Below are positions 15,818 through 42,594 of a stretch of 64,000 nt of DNA, piece after piece; the first letter of the stretch is position 1; every line of letters begins with the position of its first letter. The notes under the pieces are model-generated. The model was not told the DNA's origin, did not search any database, and was given only the letters and a program-made list of their open reading frames with translations. Location: the NCBI RefSeq assembly GCF_018256155.1, contig NZ_JAERLY010000004.1:186001-250000 (forward strand), given 5' to 3'. The stretch is from Gluconobacter sp. Dm-62. Lineage in GTDB: Bacteria > Pseudomonadota > Alphaproteobacteria > Acetobacterales > Acetobacteraceae. The position numbers were made by a program, and so were the translations under genes.

Positions 15818-16249
15818 ATGTCCATCAAACTCGACCCCGAACTTCTTCCTGCCCTGGATATTCTCCGCATGGCCCAGTCAGGCACCCTCCTGCGCGCGGA
15901 ACGTCATACGCCCCCCGACGGTATCCCCGCTTTCGTAACGCGCGACGGCTGGAATGAACTGGTAGAAACCCACGCTGGGAATCATGACGCCCCTCACATG
16001 GTTCTTCTTCCCGCCCTTGAAAAAGCGGTTTTGCGCATCATGTCCCACGCCGCTGAGCAGGCATCCAGTAGCGGCGAAATGACACCAGTTATTACTCTGC
16101 CAAGCGATCTTTTTCCCAGTGATCCGGATCTGGTTCTCTCCTTCGTCCGCGACAGTACACATCCGGTTGCATGCGCCCTGATCGGTACCGCGGCGCAGAT
16201 TGAAAATGCATTACGCGGGTACGGAACAGCTCAGGACCTTCCGAACTGA
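15818..16249 (+). CDS. Hypothetical cytoplasmic protein
   Basis: A 143-residue protein starting MSIKLDPELLPALD at the ATG 15818; the frame is open to 15773 but that region contains the terminator of the preceding gene. There is no signal peptide or membrane segment. It has mixed alpha/beta character with a helix-rich centre (PALEKAVLRIMSHAAEQ) and a C-terminal part ending VACALIGTAAQIENALRG. I cannot place it in a family. It is convergent with fliJ, and its last 19 bases overlap the fliJ 3' end. Confidence 0.65.
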   Translation: MSIKLDPELLPALDILRMAQSGTLLRAERHTPPDGIPAFVTRDGWNELVETHAGNHDAPHMVLLPALEKAVLRIMSHAAEQASSSGEMTPVITLPSDLFPSDPDLVLSFVRDSTHPVACALIGTAAQIENALRGYGTAQDLPN

Positions 16250-16656
16250 CGGGTAGCCAGTTCGTCCAGAGCGTTCTGTTCTTTCTTGAGCTCCACTTGC
16301 CGCTCTTCCTCTTTCTGCTCTTCACGCAATGTCTTGACCGCTTCCATAGCGGCTCTGGCAGCAATCAATGCAGACCGCACCGTCTCCCGATCCAACGCAG
16401 CTTCACGGCAACGGTCCTGAGCCTCTGTAACCGCCTGGCGCCCTGCAGGAAGCCAGCGACTGAAAGCTTCGACGGCGCCGTCACCTGCCGTTGGGCTGGA
16501 CGCGATCTGCTGCTCGCTCAGAATTTCCAGCTGGGCAGCAGCCAGCTTCTCTTCCGCAGCCGTCTCGCGCGCCACCGCATCTGCGAAGCTCCGCTCCACA
16601 AGATCAAGTTCCTGCTCTCGCAACGCAATCAGTGTATCGAGGGGTGAACGCTCCAT
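16231..16656 (-). CDS. fliJ: Flagellar export chaperone FliJ-like protein
   Basis: A roughly 141-residue, almost entirely helical protein rich in Glu, Ala, Arg and Gln. It has heptad-like segments typical of FliJ, the coiled-coil stalk that couples the FliI ATPase to the flagellar export gate. Identity rests mainly on position 13 bases downstream of fliI together with size and coiled-coil character; sequence conservation in FliJ is low. The ATG at 16656 (MERSPLDTL) has GAAGGA 11 bases upstream; an ATG at 16680 would overlap fliI by 11 bases. Its end overlaps the convergent unknown gene. Confidence 0.75.
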   Translation of the reverse strand: MERSPLDTLIALREQELDLVERSFADAVARETAAEEKLAAAQLEILSEQQIASSPTAGDGAVEAFSRWLPAGRQAVTEAQDRCREAALDRETVRSALIAARAAMEAVKTLREEQKEEERQVELKKEQNALDELATRQFGRS

Positions 16657-16669
16657 CCTGATTAATCCT

Positions 16670-18028
16670 TCATGCCGCATTCAGAGGGGCAGTTGGTGAA
16701 ATTGTCTGCATGATGTGTGCCAGCTGCTCAAAAGCTTCAGCGCGTGTGGAACGCTCGTTCCGCCCCTGAGACAGAAACCGGTCCAATTTTGGCATCAGCG
16801 CGATGGCTTCATCCACCTCCCGATCTGTTCCGGGCTTGTATGCGCCGAGACGGATCATGTCCGCCATACGCTGGTATGTTGCCATAGCCGCACGTGCACG
16901 TCGTGTAAGAGCATTCTCTTCCTCCGAATTACATCCCGGGACGGCGCGCGAGAGAGACCGCAAGACATCAATGGCAGGATATCGCCCCTGCTCGCCAATC
17001 TTGCGATCAAGAATAATATGCCCGTCCAGAATACCACGCACGGCATCTGCAACAGGCTCATTCTGGTCGTCGCCTTCCACAAGAACAGTGAAAAGCGCTG
17101 TGATCATTCCCTGATCTGGGTAACCTGGGCCAGCCCTCTCCAAAAGCCGCGGAAGTTCAGCGAATACCGAAGGCGGGTAACCTCGTGTCGCAGGTGGTTC
17201 CCCAGCTGACAGACCAATTTCGCGCAGAGCCATGCAAAAGCGCGTCACACTGTCCATCAACAACAGAACCGACTTATCCTGGTCCCGAAAGTATTCTGCG
17301 ATCGCCATGGCGGAAAGAGCGGCTTCGCGGCGCATCAATGGCGGTGAATCCGAGGTTGCAATGACCAGAACACTTCGTGCCAGCCCTTCTGGCCCGAGGT
17401 CATCCTCAATGAATTCCCGAACTTCACGCCCGCGTTCACCAACAAGCGAGATCACGGCGACATCGCAATCCGCACCTCGCGCCAGCATGGACAGCAAAGT
17501 TGATTTTCCAACTCCGGAACCAGCAAAGAGACCAAGCCTCTGCCCGCGACGGCATGTCGTGAATGCATCCAGCGCACGGACCCCGAGATCAACACGCTCT
17601 CCGAGCCGTGCCCTGCTGGCCGCGTTTGGTGGTGCGCATTGAACAGCCTGCCGCTCCACAGATGGCGACAACGGACCTTTTCCATCAATCGGCTGCCCCA
17701 ATGGATCCAGAACCCGACCCAGCCAACTCTCATTGACGCCAAGGCCGCCATCACGACGATTGAAGGGAATCTTGGCCTCGCAACCTGGGCCAATCCCATC
17801 CAGAGGAGCAAACGACATCAGCCGCGCAACGTTGCCCTGAAACCCCACAACCTCGGATTGTACCACGCGACCATCACGCGCTTTAACGGCGACTCGGTCT
17901 CCAATCGTAATGAATCCATCAAGTCCGACGACTGTCATACACAGACCCACGACGTCTTTAACGCTTCCTACAACCCATTCGCAGGTGAGGTTCAAAAGCT
18001 TTTCAAGCAGCTTGGCATGATCGGTCAT
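16670..18028 (-). CDS. fliI: Flagellum-specific ATPase FliI
   Basis: A type III export ATPase that energises flagellar protein secretion at the cytoplasmic face of the basal body. The 452-residue product has the Walker A motif GSGVGKST at 170-177 and Walker B in SVLLLMDSVTRF. The family signature is SLVGERGREVREFIEDDLG, and GEPPATRGYPPSVF is characteristic of FliI/YscN rather than F1 beta. Length is normal. fliJ follows 13 bases later. The promoter region is shared with the divergent ctrA gene, where a CtrA-box-like sequence occurs. Confidence 0.94.
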   Translation of the reverse strand: MTDHAKLLEKLLNLTCEWVVGSVKDVVGLCMTVVGLDGFITIGDRVAVKARDGRVVQSEVVGFQGNVARLMSFAPLDGIGPGCEAKIPFNRRDGGLGVNESWLGRVLDPLGQPIDGKGPLSPSVERQAVQCAPPNAASRARLGERVDLGVRALDAFTTCRRGQRLGLFAGSGVGKSTLLSMLARGADCDVAVISLVGERGREVREFIEDDLGPEGLARSVLVIATSDSPPLMRREAALSAMAIAEYFRDQDKSVLLLMDSVTRFCMALREIGLSAGEPPATRGYPPSVFAELPRLLERAGPGYPDQGMITALFTVLVEGDDQNEPVADAVRGILDGHIILDRKIGEQGRYPAIDVLRSLSRAVPGCNSEEENALTRRARAAMATYQRMADMIRLGAYKPGTDREVDEAIALMPKLDRFLSQGRNERSTRAEAFEQLAHIMQTISPTAPLNAA

Positions 18029-18089: not shown

Positions 18090-18104
18090 TTAAGAGAAGA
18101 CTAA
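18090..18104. promoter_or_regulatory. Candidate CtrA-binding site between fliI and ctrA
   Basis: TTAA-GAGAAGA-CTAA spans 18090-18104. It matches the Caulobacter CtrA consensus TTAA-N7-TTAA at seven of eight half-site bases with the exact 7-base spacing. It sits 62 bases upstream of the fliI start and 112 bases upstream of the ctrA start, suitable for autoregulation or flagellar control. Position and spacing are seen directly; binding is inferred. Confidence 0.45.
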
Positions 18105-18216: not shown

Positions 18217-18960
18217 ATGCGTATTCTTCTTGTCGATAGCGATCAGTCTGCCGCCGCCACGTTATCCCAGATTCTGCGAAACGCCTCATTTACCGTTGAC
18301 CATACGCCGTCGGGTGAAGAGGCCATCGAAATGCTCCGGCATTATGATTATGACGTGGTCGTGCTCGAACTGATGCTGAATGATCTTGAAGGATATGAAG
18401 TTATCCGGCGCGTCCGGACAAGCCGCATCACGACACCCATTCTCGTCCTGTCGGCACTGCTACGGCCTCAAGCAAAAATTCGGGCCTTTTCCATGGGTGC
18501 GGACGACTACATGACCAAGCCCTATGACGAAGGTGAACTGGTTGCCCGTCTCCAGGCTGTCATGCGGCGTTCCCGTGGCTTTGCTGAGCCCAAGCTTCGC
18601 ATTGGAAATCTTGAGCTGGACCTCAACGGCAAAAATGTTACCGTTGATGGTGCTCCGCTCCATTTGACCGGCAAAGAATATGCCATTCTGGAGTTGCTGG
18701 TAATCCGCAAGGGATCCGTCCTGACCAAGGACGCATTTCTCAATCACCTGTATGGCGGCATCGACGAACCGGAAATGAAGATCATTGACGTCTTCATCTG
18801 CAAACTGCGCCGTAAATTACAGAATGTCGGTGCTGGAAATCTGATCGCCACAGTGTGGGGACGCGGCTACATCCTGCGTGAAGACGATGCCGCAGACGCA
18901 GTCTCTGCCGCCCTCCCGGCCCCAAAGATCACTGCGGAGATTGCCGACGCAACAGTCTGA
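18217..18960 (+). CDS. ctrA: CtrA-type cell-cycle/flagellar response regulator with non-canonical receiver
   Basis: This 247-residue OmpR-family regulator is recognised as CtrA by its DNA-binding half. It has LTGKEYAILELL, LTKDAFLNHLYGG and EPEMKIIDVFICKLRRKL, nearly identical to Caulobacter CtrA, plus GADDYMTKP in the receiver. The receiver is altered at key places. Residue 51, the phospho-accepting Asp in CtrA, is Glu (codon GAA at 18367, in VVVLELMLND). The Mg2+-binding acidic pair is Ser8-Asp9 instead of Asp8-Asp9. The C-terminus ends IADATV, without the terminal Ala-Ala that marks Caulobacter CtrA for ClpXP. It is divergent from fliI. Control by phosphorelay is doubtful; DNA binding looks intact. 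Confidence 0.92.
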   Translation: MRILLVDSDQSAAATLSQILRNASFTVDHTPSGEEAIEMLRHYDYDVVVLELMLNDLEGYEVIRRVRTSRITTPILVLSALLRPQAKIRAFSMGADDYMTKPYDEGELVARLQAVMRRSRGFAEPKLRIGNLELDLNGKNVTVDGAPLHLTGKEYAILELLVIRKGSVLTKDAFLNHLYGGIDEPEMKIIDVFICKLRRKLQNVGAGNLIATVWGRGYILREDDAADAVSAALPAPKITAEIADATV

Positions 18961-19018: not shown

Positions 19019-20377
19019 TCAGACGTGGGCAATTGCGCGAATGACATCACAGACATGATCCACCACTTCATGCACAAGCGCTTCATCCTGCGCTTCGGCC
19101 ATGACGCGGATCAGCGGCTCCGTCCCGCTTGCACGCAGGACAAGGCGGCCACTCCCGGCCAGCCGCTCATCTGCCCAGGCTTTTGCCGCCGCCAAATCCG
19201 GACTGCCCATCGGACTGGTGCCTGAATAGCGGACATTTTTCAGAAGCTGGGGATAAGGCGTGAAGAAACGGCAGATCTCACTCGCAGGCCGTTTGGTTTC
19301 AACAGAAACGGCTAGAACCTGTAACGCGGCAATCAGACCATCCCCTGTAGTGGCGTAGTCTGACAGGACCATATGTCCGGACTGCTCGCCGCCAAGATTG
19401 GCGCCGATCTCTCGCATGCGTTCAACAACATAACGATCGCCTACCGCCGTCCGCTGAAGCTCGAGACCATTTTCCGCCAAAGCTTTTTCCAGACCCATAT
19501 TGGACATAACGGTCGTAACCACCGTATTGCCCCGCAGCCGGTCATGCTGCTTCCAGAAAGCAGCGATCAGACCGATAATCTGATCTCCATCAACCAGATT
19601 GCCGGCTTCATCCGCAATCAGCACGCGATCCGCATCACCATCCAGCGCAATGCCGAAATCCGCACCATGCTCCCGGACAGCTGCACACAACGTTTCCGGA
19701 TGGGTTGATCCAACACCATCATTGATGTTCAGCCCATCAGGCGAACAGCCGATCTTGATGACTTCTGCACCCAGTTCCCACAGTGCAGTGGGTGCCACCC
19801 GATAAGCGGAGCCATTGGCACAGTCGATAACGATTTTCAGACCATCCAGGCGCAGGCCGCGGGGGAAGGATGCCTTTGCGTTCTCGATATAACGTCCGGC
19901 AGCATCTGTAAGGCGTGACGCCCGACCGATCTGTGCCGGAGAGGCCAGCCGCGCAGACAGATCCTGAGACATCATTTCTTCAATCTGACCCTCCACCTCA
20001 TCAGACAGCTTAAAGCCATCAGGTCCAAACAGCTTGATGCCGTTATCCGTGAAGGGATTGTGCGAAGCAGAAACCATCACGCCCAGATCGGCCCGAAGGG
20101 AGCGCGTCAGCATGGCAATAGCCGGTGTCGGGAGCGGTCCGACCAGAATGACGTCCATTCCTGCAGATAGAAACCCCGCAACCAGAGCGCATTCCAGCAT
20201 GTAGCCAGAGAGACGCGTATCCTTGCCCAGAACGACGCTATGCCGTCGGTTCTGGCTCCGCATAAAATACAGGCCGGCCGCCTGACCCAGCTTCTGTGCG
20301 ATCTCGACCGTCATGGGTGCGGTGTTTGCCGTTCCCCGGATACCATCAGTACCGAACAGAGACCTTTTGGTAGCCAT
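19019..20377 (-). CDS. glmM: Phosphoglucosamine mutase
   Basis: It converts glucosamine 6-phosphate to glucosamine 1-phosphate on the way to UDP-GlcNAc for peptidoglycan and lipopolysaccharide. The 452 residues start [12 protein letters not shown]. They contain the active-site phosphoserine loop [12 protein letters not shown] near residue 100, the metal-binding DGDADR, and the phosphate-binding [12 protein letters not shown] near the end. All are standard GlmM motifs. It follows ftsH on the same strand but is separated from it by a strong terminator at 20407-20453, so it probably has its own promoter. ctrA converges on its 3' end. Confidence 0.96.
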
Positions 20378-20473: not shown

Positions 20474-22378
20474 TTAGCCCGCCTGAGGCGCCGGATCAAA
20501 CGCTCCGGGGCGCGTCGTCGGGACAGATGCGCGGCGGTTGTCCGGCATTTGCTCATCATCCGACGTGCGCTCGATGGCCTCACCCCGCATGATGCGACCA
20601 ACATCATCACCCGTCAGGGTTTCATATTCCAGAAGCGCTGCGGTCAGACGATGCAGATCTTCAATACGGGTCGTCAGCAGATCATGGGCCTGGCTGTAAG
20701 CCGTATCGATCAGGACCTTGACCTCCTTGTCGATCTCTCTCGCAGTTTCTTCCGAAATATTTTTATTCTGGGTCACGGAATGACCAAGGAACACTTCCTG
20801 CCCGTTATCGCCATAAGCGATCATACCAAGCTTGTCGCTCATACCCCATTCAGTAACCATACGGCGCGCAAGGTCCGTGGCGCTTTTGATATCACCAGAA
20901 GCACCCGCACTGACTTCTTCCCGACCGAAAATGATTTCCTCTGCCACACGACCACCCATGGCGATGACCAGACGGGCCAGGCACCATTTGCGGCTGTAGG
21001 AAATGTTATCTTTCTCCGGCAGGGTCATGACGAGACCCAGAGCCCGGCCACGCGGCACGATTGTCGCCTTGTGGATCGGATCACTTCCCGGAGTGAAGAT
21101 CGCGCAGATGGCATGTCCGGATTCATGGTAGGCAGTCGAACGCTTCTCGTCCTCGGTCATGACCATGGAACGGCGCTCAGCCCCCATCATGACCTTGTCC
21201 TTGGCTTCCTCGAACTGTGCCATACCCACGGTCCGGCGTCCCTGACGGGCCGCCATCAGCGCAGCTTCATTCACGAGATTGGACAGATCCGCGCCCGAGA
21301 AACCAGGAGTTCCACGTGCAATGACTTTGGGATCCACATCTGAAGAAAGCGGCACCTTCTTCATGTGAACACGCAGGATCTTTTCACGACCGGCAACATC
21401 CGGGTTCGGTACGACAACCTGACGGTCAAAGCGGCCTGGACGCAGGAGAGCCGGATCCAGAACGTCCGGACGGTTGGTCGCGGCAATCAGGATCACGCCC
21501 TCATTGCTCTCAAAACCATCCATCTCGACCAGCATCTGGTTCAGTGTCTGCTCACGCTCGTCGTTACCACCGCCAAGGCCTGCGCCACGATGACGGCCCA
21601 CGGCGTCGATTTCGTCGATGAAGATGATGCACGGCGCAGACTTTTTGCCCTGCTCGAACATGTCACGCACACGGGACGCACCGACGCCGACGAACATTTC
21701 CACAAAGTCCGACCCGGAAATCGTGAAGAACGGCACATTGGCTTCGCCCGCAATGGCACGCGCCAAAAGCGTCTTACCCGTACCCGGCGGCCCAACGAGC
21801 AGCGCACCCTTGGGGATCTTGCCACCCAGACGGGTGAATTTCTGCGGATCGCGCAGGAACTCGACAATCTCCTGAAGCTCGGCTTTTGCCTCGTCGATAC
21901 CGGCGACATCTTCAAACGTTACACGCCCGGTCTTCTCGGTCAGGAGCTTGGCACGGGACTTGCCAAAGCCCATGGCCCGGCCGCCGCCACCCTGCATCTG
22001 ACGGAAAACCATGAAGCACAGCCCGACCAGCAGCAGAACCGGCAGATACGCGCTGGCGTAACGCAGGATAGGGCTTTCCCCGCTTTCCATCGGTTTGGCG
22101 GTCACTTCAACGCCAGAAGATGTCAGACGGGCCGGAAGGCTCGGATCAAGCGGAGCATAGGTCTCGAAAGATGTTCCGTTCGTCAGGGTCCCGGAGACGT
22201 TCTGCTCCTGGATCACGACGGAACGGACCTGATGCTGATCCACATCATGGATGAAATCGGAATAAGCGATCTGCTGGGCTGCATGCTGGCCGCCACCGGG
22301 CTGGAAGGCTGTCAGCACTGCCATTCCGACCACGATGATGACCACCCAGATCGCGACGTTACGGCCTAAATTGTTCAT
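20474..22378 (-). CDS. ftsH: ATP-dependent zinc metalloprotease FtsH
   Basis: A membrane-anchored AAA+ protease that degrades misfolded membrane proteins and regulatory substrates. The 634 residues show an N-terminal transmembrane helix (about 8-25), a periplasmic domain, and a second helix (about 111-126). Walker A GPPGTGKT is at 196-203, Walker B is FIDEID, the SRH contains [19 protein letters not shown], and the zinc-binding HESGH is at 418-422. The proline-rich C-terminal tail is variable. It lies downstream of tilS with a gap of about 170 bases, the usual tilS-ftsH order. Confidence 0.97.
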
Positions 22379-42288: not shown

Positions 42289-42362
42289 TGGAGCGGGCGA
42301 GGGGAATCGAACCCCCGTATGCAGCTTGGGAAGCTGCCGTTCTACCATTGAACTACGCCCGC
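42289..42362 (-). tRNA. tRNA-Gly (anticodon CCC)
   Basis: Reading the minus strand, GCGGGCG (42362-42356) pairs with CGCCCGC to close the acceptor stem, with T as discriminator and an encoded CCA (42291-42289). The D arm has GTTCAATGGTAGAAC, the anticodon loop is TTCCCAA giving CCC, and the T arm contains GGTTCGATTCC. All four arms form, 74 bases including CCA. It decodes GGG. Confidence 0.95.
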
Positions 42363-42487
42363 AGACGGACGCGAGCATAACCGCTCCGTCTTCCCTTCGC
42401 AATCCACCCCGCCCAAACTTCAGGGTGTTGACGCAAAACCGAAATACGGCTCATAGTCCGGCTGTCAGAAACGTCATGGCGTGCCTG

Positions 42488-42546
42488 ACCCTCGTGATTT
42501 GAGCGGCCGGCTTGCGGCGAGGTTAAAGAATTGCGCTAAAGAGGCC
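42488..42546 (+). ncRNA. SAM-II riboswitch aptamer upstream of metZ
   Basis: The segment carries the SAM-II (metA-type) core in order: CGTGATTTG, a GC-rich loop, CTTGCGG, CGAGGTTAAAGAA, and GCTAAAG. P1 forms between CCTCG (42490-42494) and CGAGG (42518-42522). A pseudoknot is possible between GGCC at 42505-42508 and GGCC at 42543-42546. SAM-II aptamers are known in Alphaproteobacteria before metA, metX and metZ and turn expression off when SAM is high, which fits the gene downstream. Confidence 0.88.
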
Positions 42547-42594
42547 CTGCGTCGTTATCGAACGATTCCCAGGACTTCCACGGCCCGCCACATG

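Follow-up and report, generated by a model that had tools for sequence, protein, structure and literature searches.

What becomes of a response regulator when the aspartate that should accept its phosphate is no longer there? The question is raised by a ctrA gene of Gluconobacter sp. Dm-62, which lies at 18217-18960 on the forward strand of a 64,000-nucleotide stretch of DNA (the window). An earlier note on this DNA had claimed that the gene encodes Glu at the phospho-acceptor position and Ser at one of two Mg2+-binding positions, that its DNA-binding half is almost unchanged, and that the CckA-ChpT relay would no longer control it.

The CtrA protein of the window

The gene encodes an OmpR-family response regulator of 247 amino acids, made up of a receiver and a winged helix. 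Pfam places Response_reg at residues 3-112 and Trans_reg_C at residues 146-220, both over cut-off, and the receiver match (PF00072) reaches 85.9 bits against a cut-off of 30.2. The best NCBIfam match is NF045991 (RespRegCtrARhodob), with 325.5 bits against a cut-off of 350; the next best scores 163. The nearest relatives of the gene are found in named Gluconobacter species. A second, canonical CtrA was not found in the source genome, a 3.46-Mb draft in 52 contigs that is 99.99% complete; the best other matches there are OmpR-type paralogues with 35% identity.

Both substitutions are borne out by the sequence. Codon 51 (18367-18369, + strand) is GAA, for Glu, and codon 8 (18238-18240, + strand) is AGC, for Ser. 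Residues E7 and D8 are taken here, by alignment with PhoB, to be the Mg2+-binding acid pair, with residue 8 as its second member. Since residue 7 of the window protein is Asp, only one acid of the pair is gone, and the acid triad positions read D7, S8 and E51. Missing are the second metal-binding acid and the acceptor Asp, residues needed for phosphotransfer. According to the alignment, the conserved Thr/Ser position (codon 79, TCG for Ser; 18451-18453, + strand) and the conserved Lys (codon 101, AAG; 18517-18519, + strand) are both kept.

The receiver (residues 1-118; 18217-18570, + strand) is predicted to be ordered, with ten-residue pLDDT means of 91-98 over residues 1-120. In the predicted structure, Glu51 ends strand 3 (47-51), Ser79 ends strand 4 and Lys101 lies just past strand 5. 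Together with the faster evolution of this domain in ChpT-less relatives (see below), the predicted fold suggests that it is now a pseudo-receiver. The DNA-binding domain (residues 124-222; 18586-18882, + strand) is conserved, both in the rate test described below and in its identity averages: it shares about 69-70% mean identity with relatives that have ChpT and with those that do not, so that "almost unchanged" was a fair description.

A flagellar neighbourhood

Divergent from ctrA is a gene for a fliI-type flagellar export ATPase (16670-18028, - strand), with fliJ behind it (16231-16680, - strand; Pfam FliJ). On the other side follow a phosphohexomutase gene of the glmM type (19019-20377, - strand), which adjoins ctrA downstream in many acetic acid bacteria, and ftsH (20474-22378, - strand); apart from fliJ, these neighbours were assigned by Pfam and by comparison of neighbourhoods. 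The divergent fliI-ctrA pair is found in many genomes with Asp51 and in many with Glu51, and this sharing between the two kinds of lineage argues for orthology. FliG is present in the source genome and in 158 of the 200 genomes surveyed below. It is missing from some genomes that carry CtrA, such as G008 and G073, and CtrA is therefore kept not for flagella only.

Between fliI and ctrA lies a CtrA-box-like candidate site, TTAA-GAGAAGA-CTAA (18090-18104), with seven of the eight bases of TTAA-N7-TTAA, which we take to be the CtrA binding consensus. A match of 7/8 is by itself within chance, as 16 of 100 shuffles reach the same, and this holds for most single motif matches in the gap. The TTAA and the last AA of the site are unchanged in all ten Gluconobacter sequences compared, while the spacer varies. 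No exact TTAA-N7-TTAA occurs within the 64-kb window. Elsewhere in the window, a SAM_alpha riboswitch adjoins a tRNA gene on the opposite strand (42481-42560, + strand, and 42292-42362, - strand).

Residues 51 and 8 across the family

The family was sampled by a draw of 200 genomes that includes the source genome; 169 of the 200 combine a completeness of 90% or more with contamination of no more than 5%. All 200 were searched for CtrA, 51 weaker genomes were searched again, and the loci were then fetched. Of 178 rows, four partial ones were dropped, leaving 174 from 173 genomes (G059 has two copies); the tabulated rows were selected to include the receiver. The other 27 genomes have no CtrA-grade match, have a partial or frame-broken copy (G032, G062, G086, G109) or were not fetched (G072, G106). 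Three paralogue-like rows (L205, L219, L222) were left out of the counts of ChpT against the triad and of the inference of first replacements. Two of these, L219 (G004) and L222 (G089), come from drafts with ChpT, where the best match is a CtrA-related protein whose recognition helix differs and whose pocket is broken; by their sequences they probably represent a separate paralogue family.

Mapping residues 51 and 8 over the Acetobacteraceae, as the earlier note had proposed, shows Glu51 to be common to many acetic acid bacteria. Residue 51 is Asp in 128 rows, Glu in 35, Arg in six, Ala in two, and Gly, His and Ser in one each. Among named full-length matches in the family, Glu51 is found in Tanticharoenia, Brytella, Acetobacter musti, Acidomonas, two Asaia, Bombella mellum and the isolates ESL0709 and B3987. 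Bombella sp. ESL0385 and Parasaccharibacter apium have Ala51, and Asp51 is found in four uncultured Acetobacteraceae or Rhodospirillales and in two sphingomonads. A CtrA-like protein on an uncultured alphaproteobacterial contig (L068), 48% identical, has Ser51.

The least probable reading of the window gene, a sequencing error or an oddity of one strain, has next to no chance of being right. Codon 51 is GAA in all nine named Gluconobacter loci (L042-L050), which come from independent assemblies and so exclude an error, and Glu51 recurs in 35 of the 174 rows.

Probable loss of the phosphorelay

In the source genome, ChpT was found neither with Pfam PF10090 nor with a 24-sequence family profile. 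The family profile splits the draw cleanly, with 119 of the 200 genomes at 89.8 bits or more and all other matches listed at 41.8 bits or less, the latter in frames long enough for histidine kinases. Compared with Pfam, it gains clear matches in G027, G109, G130 and G164; the source genome still has none, and the idea that its ChpT had merely been overlooked by Pfam was rejected. Nor does the family profile give a ChpT-grade match in the three further members of its genus group.

CckA is harder to judge. The curated Caulobacter CckA model is over cut-off in Caulobacter itself, yet in none of the 200 genomes, where family members score only up to 379, so that absence cannot be proven with it. 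CckA was sought with a four-sequence family profile, on which likely orthologues and paralogues share a range of scores near 330-365 bits. At least 374 bits are reached in 77 of the 106 rows with Asp51 and ChpT and in none of the 35 Glu51 rows, although 29 of the 106 also fall below this score. The best match of the source genome to the family profile (1.3e-81) falls among generic hybrid kinases, and its top candidates are hybrid kinases whose scores on two curated CckA models (cut-offs 1000) do not exceed 305 bits. On these profile searches, the loss of ChpT from the source genome is firm and that of CckA likely, if less certain.

The proposal that the relay no longer controls CtrA thus stands in part. 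A natural phosphorylation-blind CtrA is very likely, but the relay does not seem to be merely bypassed, since ChpT was not found and CckA is probably gone. The earlier note had assumed a relay to be present and had proposed looking for both genes in the same genomes; ChpT was not found in 34 of the 35 Glu51 rows, the exception being G133, and none of the 35 has a CckA-grade match.

CpdR is over the curated cut-off in none of the 200 genomes; this cut-off may be too strict here, as the curated one for CckA also fails in the family, and some short single-receiver frames score about 76-87 bits. SciP is over cut-off in only one of 200, a fragmented draft. Both results hold with or without ChpT. 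The C-terminus of CtrA, where a putative Ala-Ala degron would lie, is AA or VA in 78 of 105 rows with ChpT and 24 of 66 without. Of the nine named Gluconobacter, two have -VA or -FA at this end and the remaining seven -AV, -VV or -PV.

The triad and ChpT across the draw

All three acids of the triad, E7, D8 and D51, are present in 102 of 105 rows with ChpT and in 8 of 66 rows without. For the single residues, the corresponding counts are 104/105 and 22/66 for Asp51, and 103/105 and 11/66 for Asp8. Among genera that always have ChpT, 53 of 55 have the full triad in every row. The eight ChpT-less rows with a full triad include five from drafts that are 77-90% complete; the other three, from G099, G030 and G013, are from genomes that are 99-100% complete. 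Within the single genus g54, the ChpT-bearing G130 has E-D-D and Lys101, and the ChpT-less G053 and G179 have D-T-D and D-N-D, both with Arg101.

On a CtrA tree built without the triad columns, a quick gene tree with weak nodes and not a species tree, ChpT is inferred to have been lost ten times, in five cases from a single genome, and the picture is dominated by a clade of 44 rows. Independent-pair tests on this tree (eight pairs, supported branches) were not significant (median p 0.625 for the triad and 1 for Asp51), because the single 44-row clade holds most of the signal. Relay loss would have occurred at the base of this clade, with Glu51 arising later.

Six of the ten first replacements of Asp51 inferred on the tree are to Glu (binomial p 0.02 against 0.25), with Ala, His, Ser and Arg once each. 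At position 8, only two of 18 inferred changes away from Asp go to Glu (Fisher p 0.011 against position 51, exploratory). ChpT-less rows do not always have Glu: Asp51 is kept in the ChpT-less genera g56 and g71, and other ChpT-less rows have Asp, Ala, His or perhaps Arg. Asp and Glu also interconvert inside ChpT-less genera, g60 having two Asp and one Glu and g47 an Asp nested among Glu. G009 and Acetobacter musti combine Glu51 with an intact E7-D8. In G133 (L230), an 88%-complete draft, Glu51 is found with E7, D8, S79 and K101 intact and with ChpT present, and the two other sampled members of its genus have Asp51; judged by its sequence, G133 is a possible intermediate.

A receiver that evolves faster but keeps some residues

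The rate test divided the total receiver branch length by the total branch length of the DNA-binding domain on a fixed topology, with 17 divergent rows (L205, L219 and L222 among them) left out. The ratio is 1.22 on branches with ChpT, 2.54 in the large ChpT-less clade that contains the acetic acid bacteria and 1.99 on the other ChpT-less branches. Relative to the DNA-binding half, the receiver thus evolves about twice as fast without ChpT. Besides Glu51, Ser8 and the lack of a detectable ChpT, the sequence comparison shows correlated decay of the triad and faster evolution of the receiver.

The pocket does not decay evenly. Every one of 101 rows with ChpT, all chosen for an intact triad, has Pro55, Ser79 and Lys101, and 100 of them also have Gly/Ala80. 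In 40 rows of the large ChpT-less clade, Asp8 is left in two, Pro55 in 16 and Gly/Ala80 in 18, and residue 101 is Lys in 25 and Arg in 12. The same 40 rows have an acid at position 51 in 37 cases (28 Glu, 9 Asp), an acid at 7 in 39, Ser/Thr79 in 39 and Tyr/Phe98 in 35. Positions 51 and 101 appear to go together: in 67 ChpT-less rows, which are related and thus do not give independent counts, Lys or Arg is found at 101 in 53 of 56 with an acid at 51, and neither in 10 of 11 with a non-acid 51. Arg51 is paired with Asp101 in three ChpT-less rows and His51 with Asp101 in one.

In G032 (L212) and Bombella dulcis (L071), the ctrA frame is broken within the receiver, with residues 1-95 in one frame and 84-222 in another, and the DNA-binding half remains open. 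A CtrA match split over two frames near residues 65-71 was also seen in G062 (L207), where the genome is 100% complete and ChpT is present. Seven further loci (L209, L210 and L213 of g68, L214, L215 and L217 of g96, and L216 of g24) combine a CtrA-type recognition helix with a degenerate pocket in which residue 51 is Arg or Ser. They do not adjoin fliI, and g68 pairs Arg51 with Asp101; their branches are long and their orthology is uncertain.

Competing explanations

It is quite possible, if short of probable, that nothing but relaxed decay is seen. With the relay gone, residue 51 would drift, Glu would have no functional effect, and the DNA-binding domain and basal dimerisation would suffice while the receiver slowly dies. 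The Asp/Glu flips within g60 and g47, the Ala, His, Ser and perhaps Arg of other ChpT-less rows, the fast receiver evolution in ChpT-less lineages and the broken receiver frames of G032 and Bombella dulcis, both in the ChpT-less clade, all fit such decay. It does not readily explain why an acid is kept at 51 in nearly all rows of a clade that has almost entirely lost Asp8, nor the over-representation of Glu among first replacements, nor the high confidence with which the window receiver is predicted to fold. Somewhat less probable is adaptive phosphomimicry, in which D51E was selected for locking CtrA on, so that the relay became dispensable. It draws on G133, with Glu51 in an otherwise intact pocket and ChpT still there, on the intact E7-D8 of G009 and Acetobacter musti, and on the use of engineered CtrA D51E as a phosphomimetic or active allele (PMC6363796, PMC5189948). 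However, relay loss precedes Glu51 at the base of the 44-row clade on the CtrA tree, g56 and g71 are ChpT-less with Asp51, and G133 is only an 88%-complete draft. A more far-reaching version, which we regard as doubtful, is that a natural D51E made CtrA constitutively active and let acetic acid bacteria drop CckA-ChpT, a phospho-switch giving way to abundance control; the pocket would then have decayed, with the 51-101 charge pair reversed in some lines (Arg51 with Asp101).

The receiver might instead have come to respond to a ligand, a partner protein or another new input, as happens in some pseudo-receivers. The domain is present in all 174 tabulated rows, which were however chosen to include it, and the window protein has a well-folded prediction, but the frame breaks in G032 and Bombella dulcis run counter to such an input, which seems unlikely. 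That CtrA is still phosphorylated, via another residue or by another kinase, is very improbable: the source genome does have hybrid kinases with CckA-like catalytic halves, but ChpT was not found, and neither Asp51 nor Asp8, the direct Mg2+ ligand, is left in the protein.

A CtrA that probably works without phosphate

Taken together, the Gluconobacter CtrA is probably a pseudo-receiver regulator left after relay loss, which works without phosphate and is most likely set by its amount. The CckA-ChpT phosphorelay would have been lost in an ancestor, and CtrA and its flagellar neighbourhood retained. The phosphorylation pocket would thereby have been freed from selection, with loss of Asp8, replacement of Asp51 by Glu and loss of Pro55, and with the pocket-completing Lys drifting in relatives. 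Since the receiver is still predicted to fold and the acid at 51, Ser79, the aromatic residue at 98 and the base at 101 are kept, the phosphate-free receiver probably holds a state competent for DNA binding. The output of CtrA would then follow the quantity of CtrA made, not its phosphorylation, perhaps with putative autoregulation via the conserved TTAA site. We infer that the protein would be unable to be phosphorylated, constitutively active and controlled by its amount, with flagellar targets.

Glu51 might plausibly act as a phosphate mimic. A role for it is favoured by the pairing of an acid at 51 with a base at 101 and by the preference for Glu, but the interchange of Asp and Glu and the occurrence of Ala, His and Arg at this position speak against a strict role.

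Relation to known systems

In its domain order and recognition helix, and in the CtrA-box-like site nearby, the window protein resembles CtrA of Caulobacter and other alphaproteobacteria, and it shares the divergent fliI neighbour with Asp51 CtrA genes of its family. It differs from CckA-ChpT-CtrA systems in having Glu51 and Ser8, with no ChpT and no CckA-grade kinase detected. D51E was engineered in relay-bearing bacteria, in a pocket otherwise intact. The substitution itself is identical to that of the engineered allele in PMC6363796 and PMC5189948. Action without phosphate has a precedent in the Rhodobacter model of PMC6363796, in which gafA is activated by unphosphorylated CtrA.

The closest parallels are the bacterial pseudo-receivers. 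According to a review (PMC12632262), their pocket changes include the second metal acid, D, the D+4 Pro, T+1 and K, and Glu is what aspartate-less receivers most often have at the D position. Glu is there proposed as one possible cause of constitutive activity, an idea that has been disproved in some cases. The window CtrA likewise has Glu at the D position, a second metal-binding residue that is not acidic, and no D+4 Pro, and its relatives show the change of Lys to Arg. Atypical regulators such as ChxR, HP1043 and GlnR, which the review describes as dimerising without phosphorylation, are similar by description only and are not CtrA. Unlike the pseudo-receivers of the review, the CtrA orthologue keeps a true receiver and the relay in sister lineages, and the transition is thus traceable. 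The word "CtrA" is absent from the main text of the review.

Part of the picture was already known: engineered D51E as a phosphomimetic or active form, the class of pseudo-receivers, and the rarity of chpT and cckA among Rhodospirillales. In PMC8116508, ctrA is found in 72-82% of these genomes and chpT, cckA and divL in only 27-36%, and weaker selection or difficult detection is offered as a reason why chpT and cckA are scarce. No description of a natural CtrA that lacks Asp51 and is linked to relay loss appeared in the open-licence PubMed Central literature searched, and such a protein is apparently new.

Significance

In Gluconobacter and other vinegar bacteria, the on/off phospho-switch of the master cell-cycle regulator CtrA appears to have been turned into a phosphorylation-free regulator. 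The Acetobacteraceae show one and the same regulator at several stages: with relay and triad both intact; without the relay but still with Asp51; with Glu51 and an unbroken acid pair; with Glu51 and a broken pair; and with a non-acid residue 51. The on/off mechanisms of bacterial pseudo-receivers, which according to the abstract of PMC12632262 "remain a mystery", become directly testable here with single-residue alleles. The finding may also help to explain why ctrA outnumbers chpT, cckA and divL in the Rhodospirillales genomes of PMC8116508. It would alter the view of motility, and perhaps of cell-cycle control, in industrial acetic acid bacteria.
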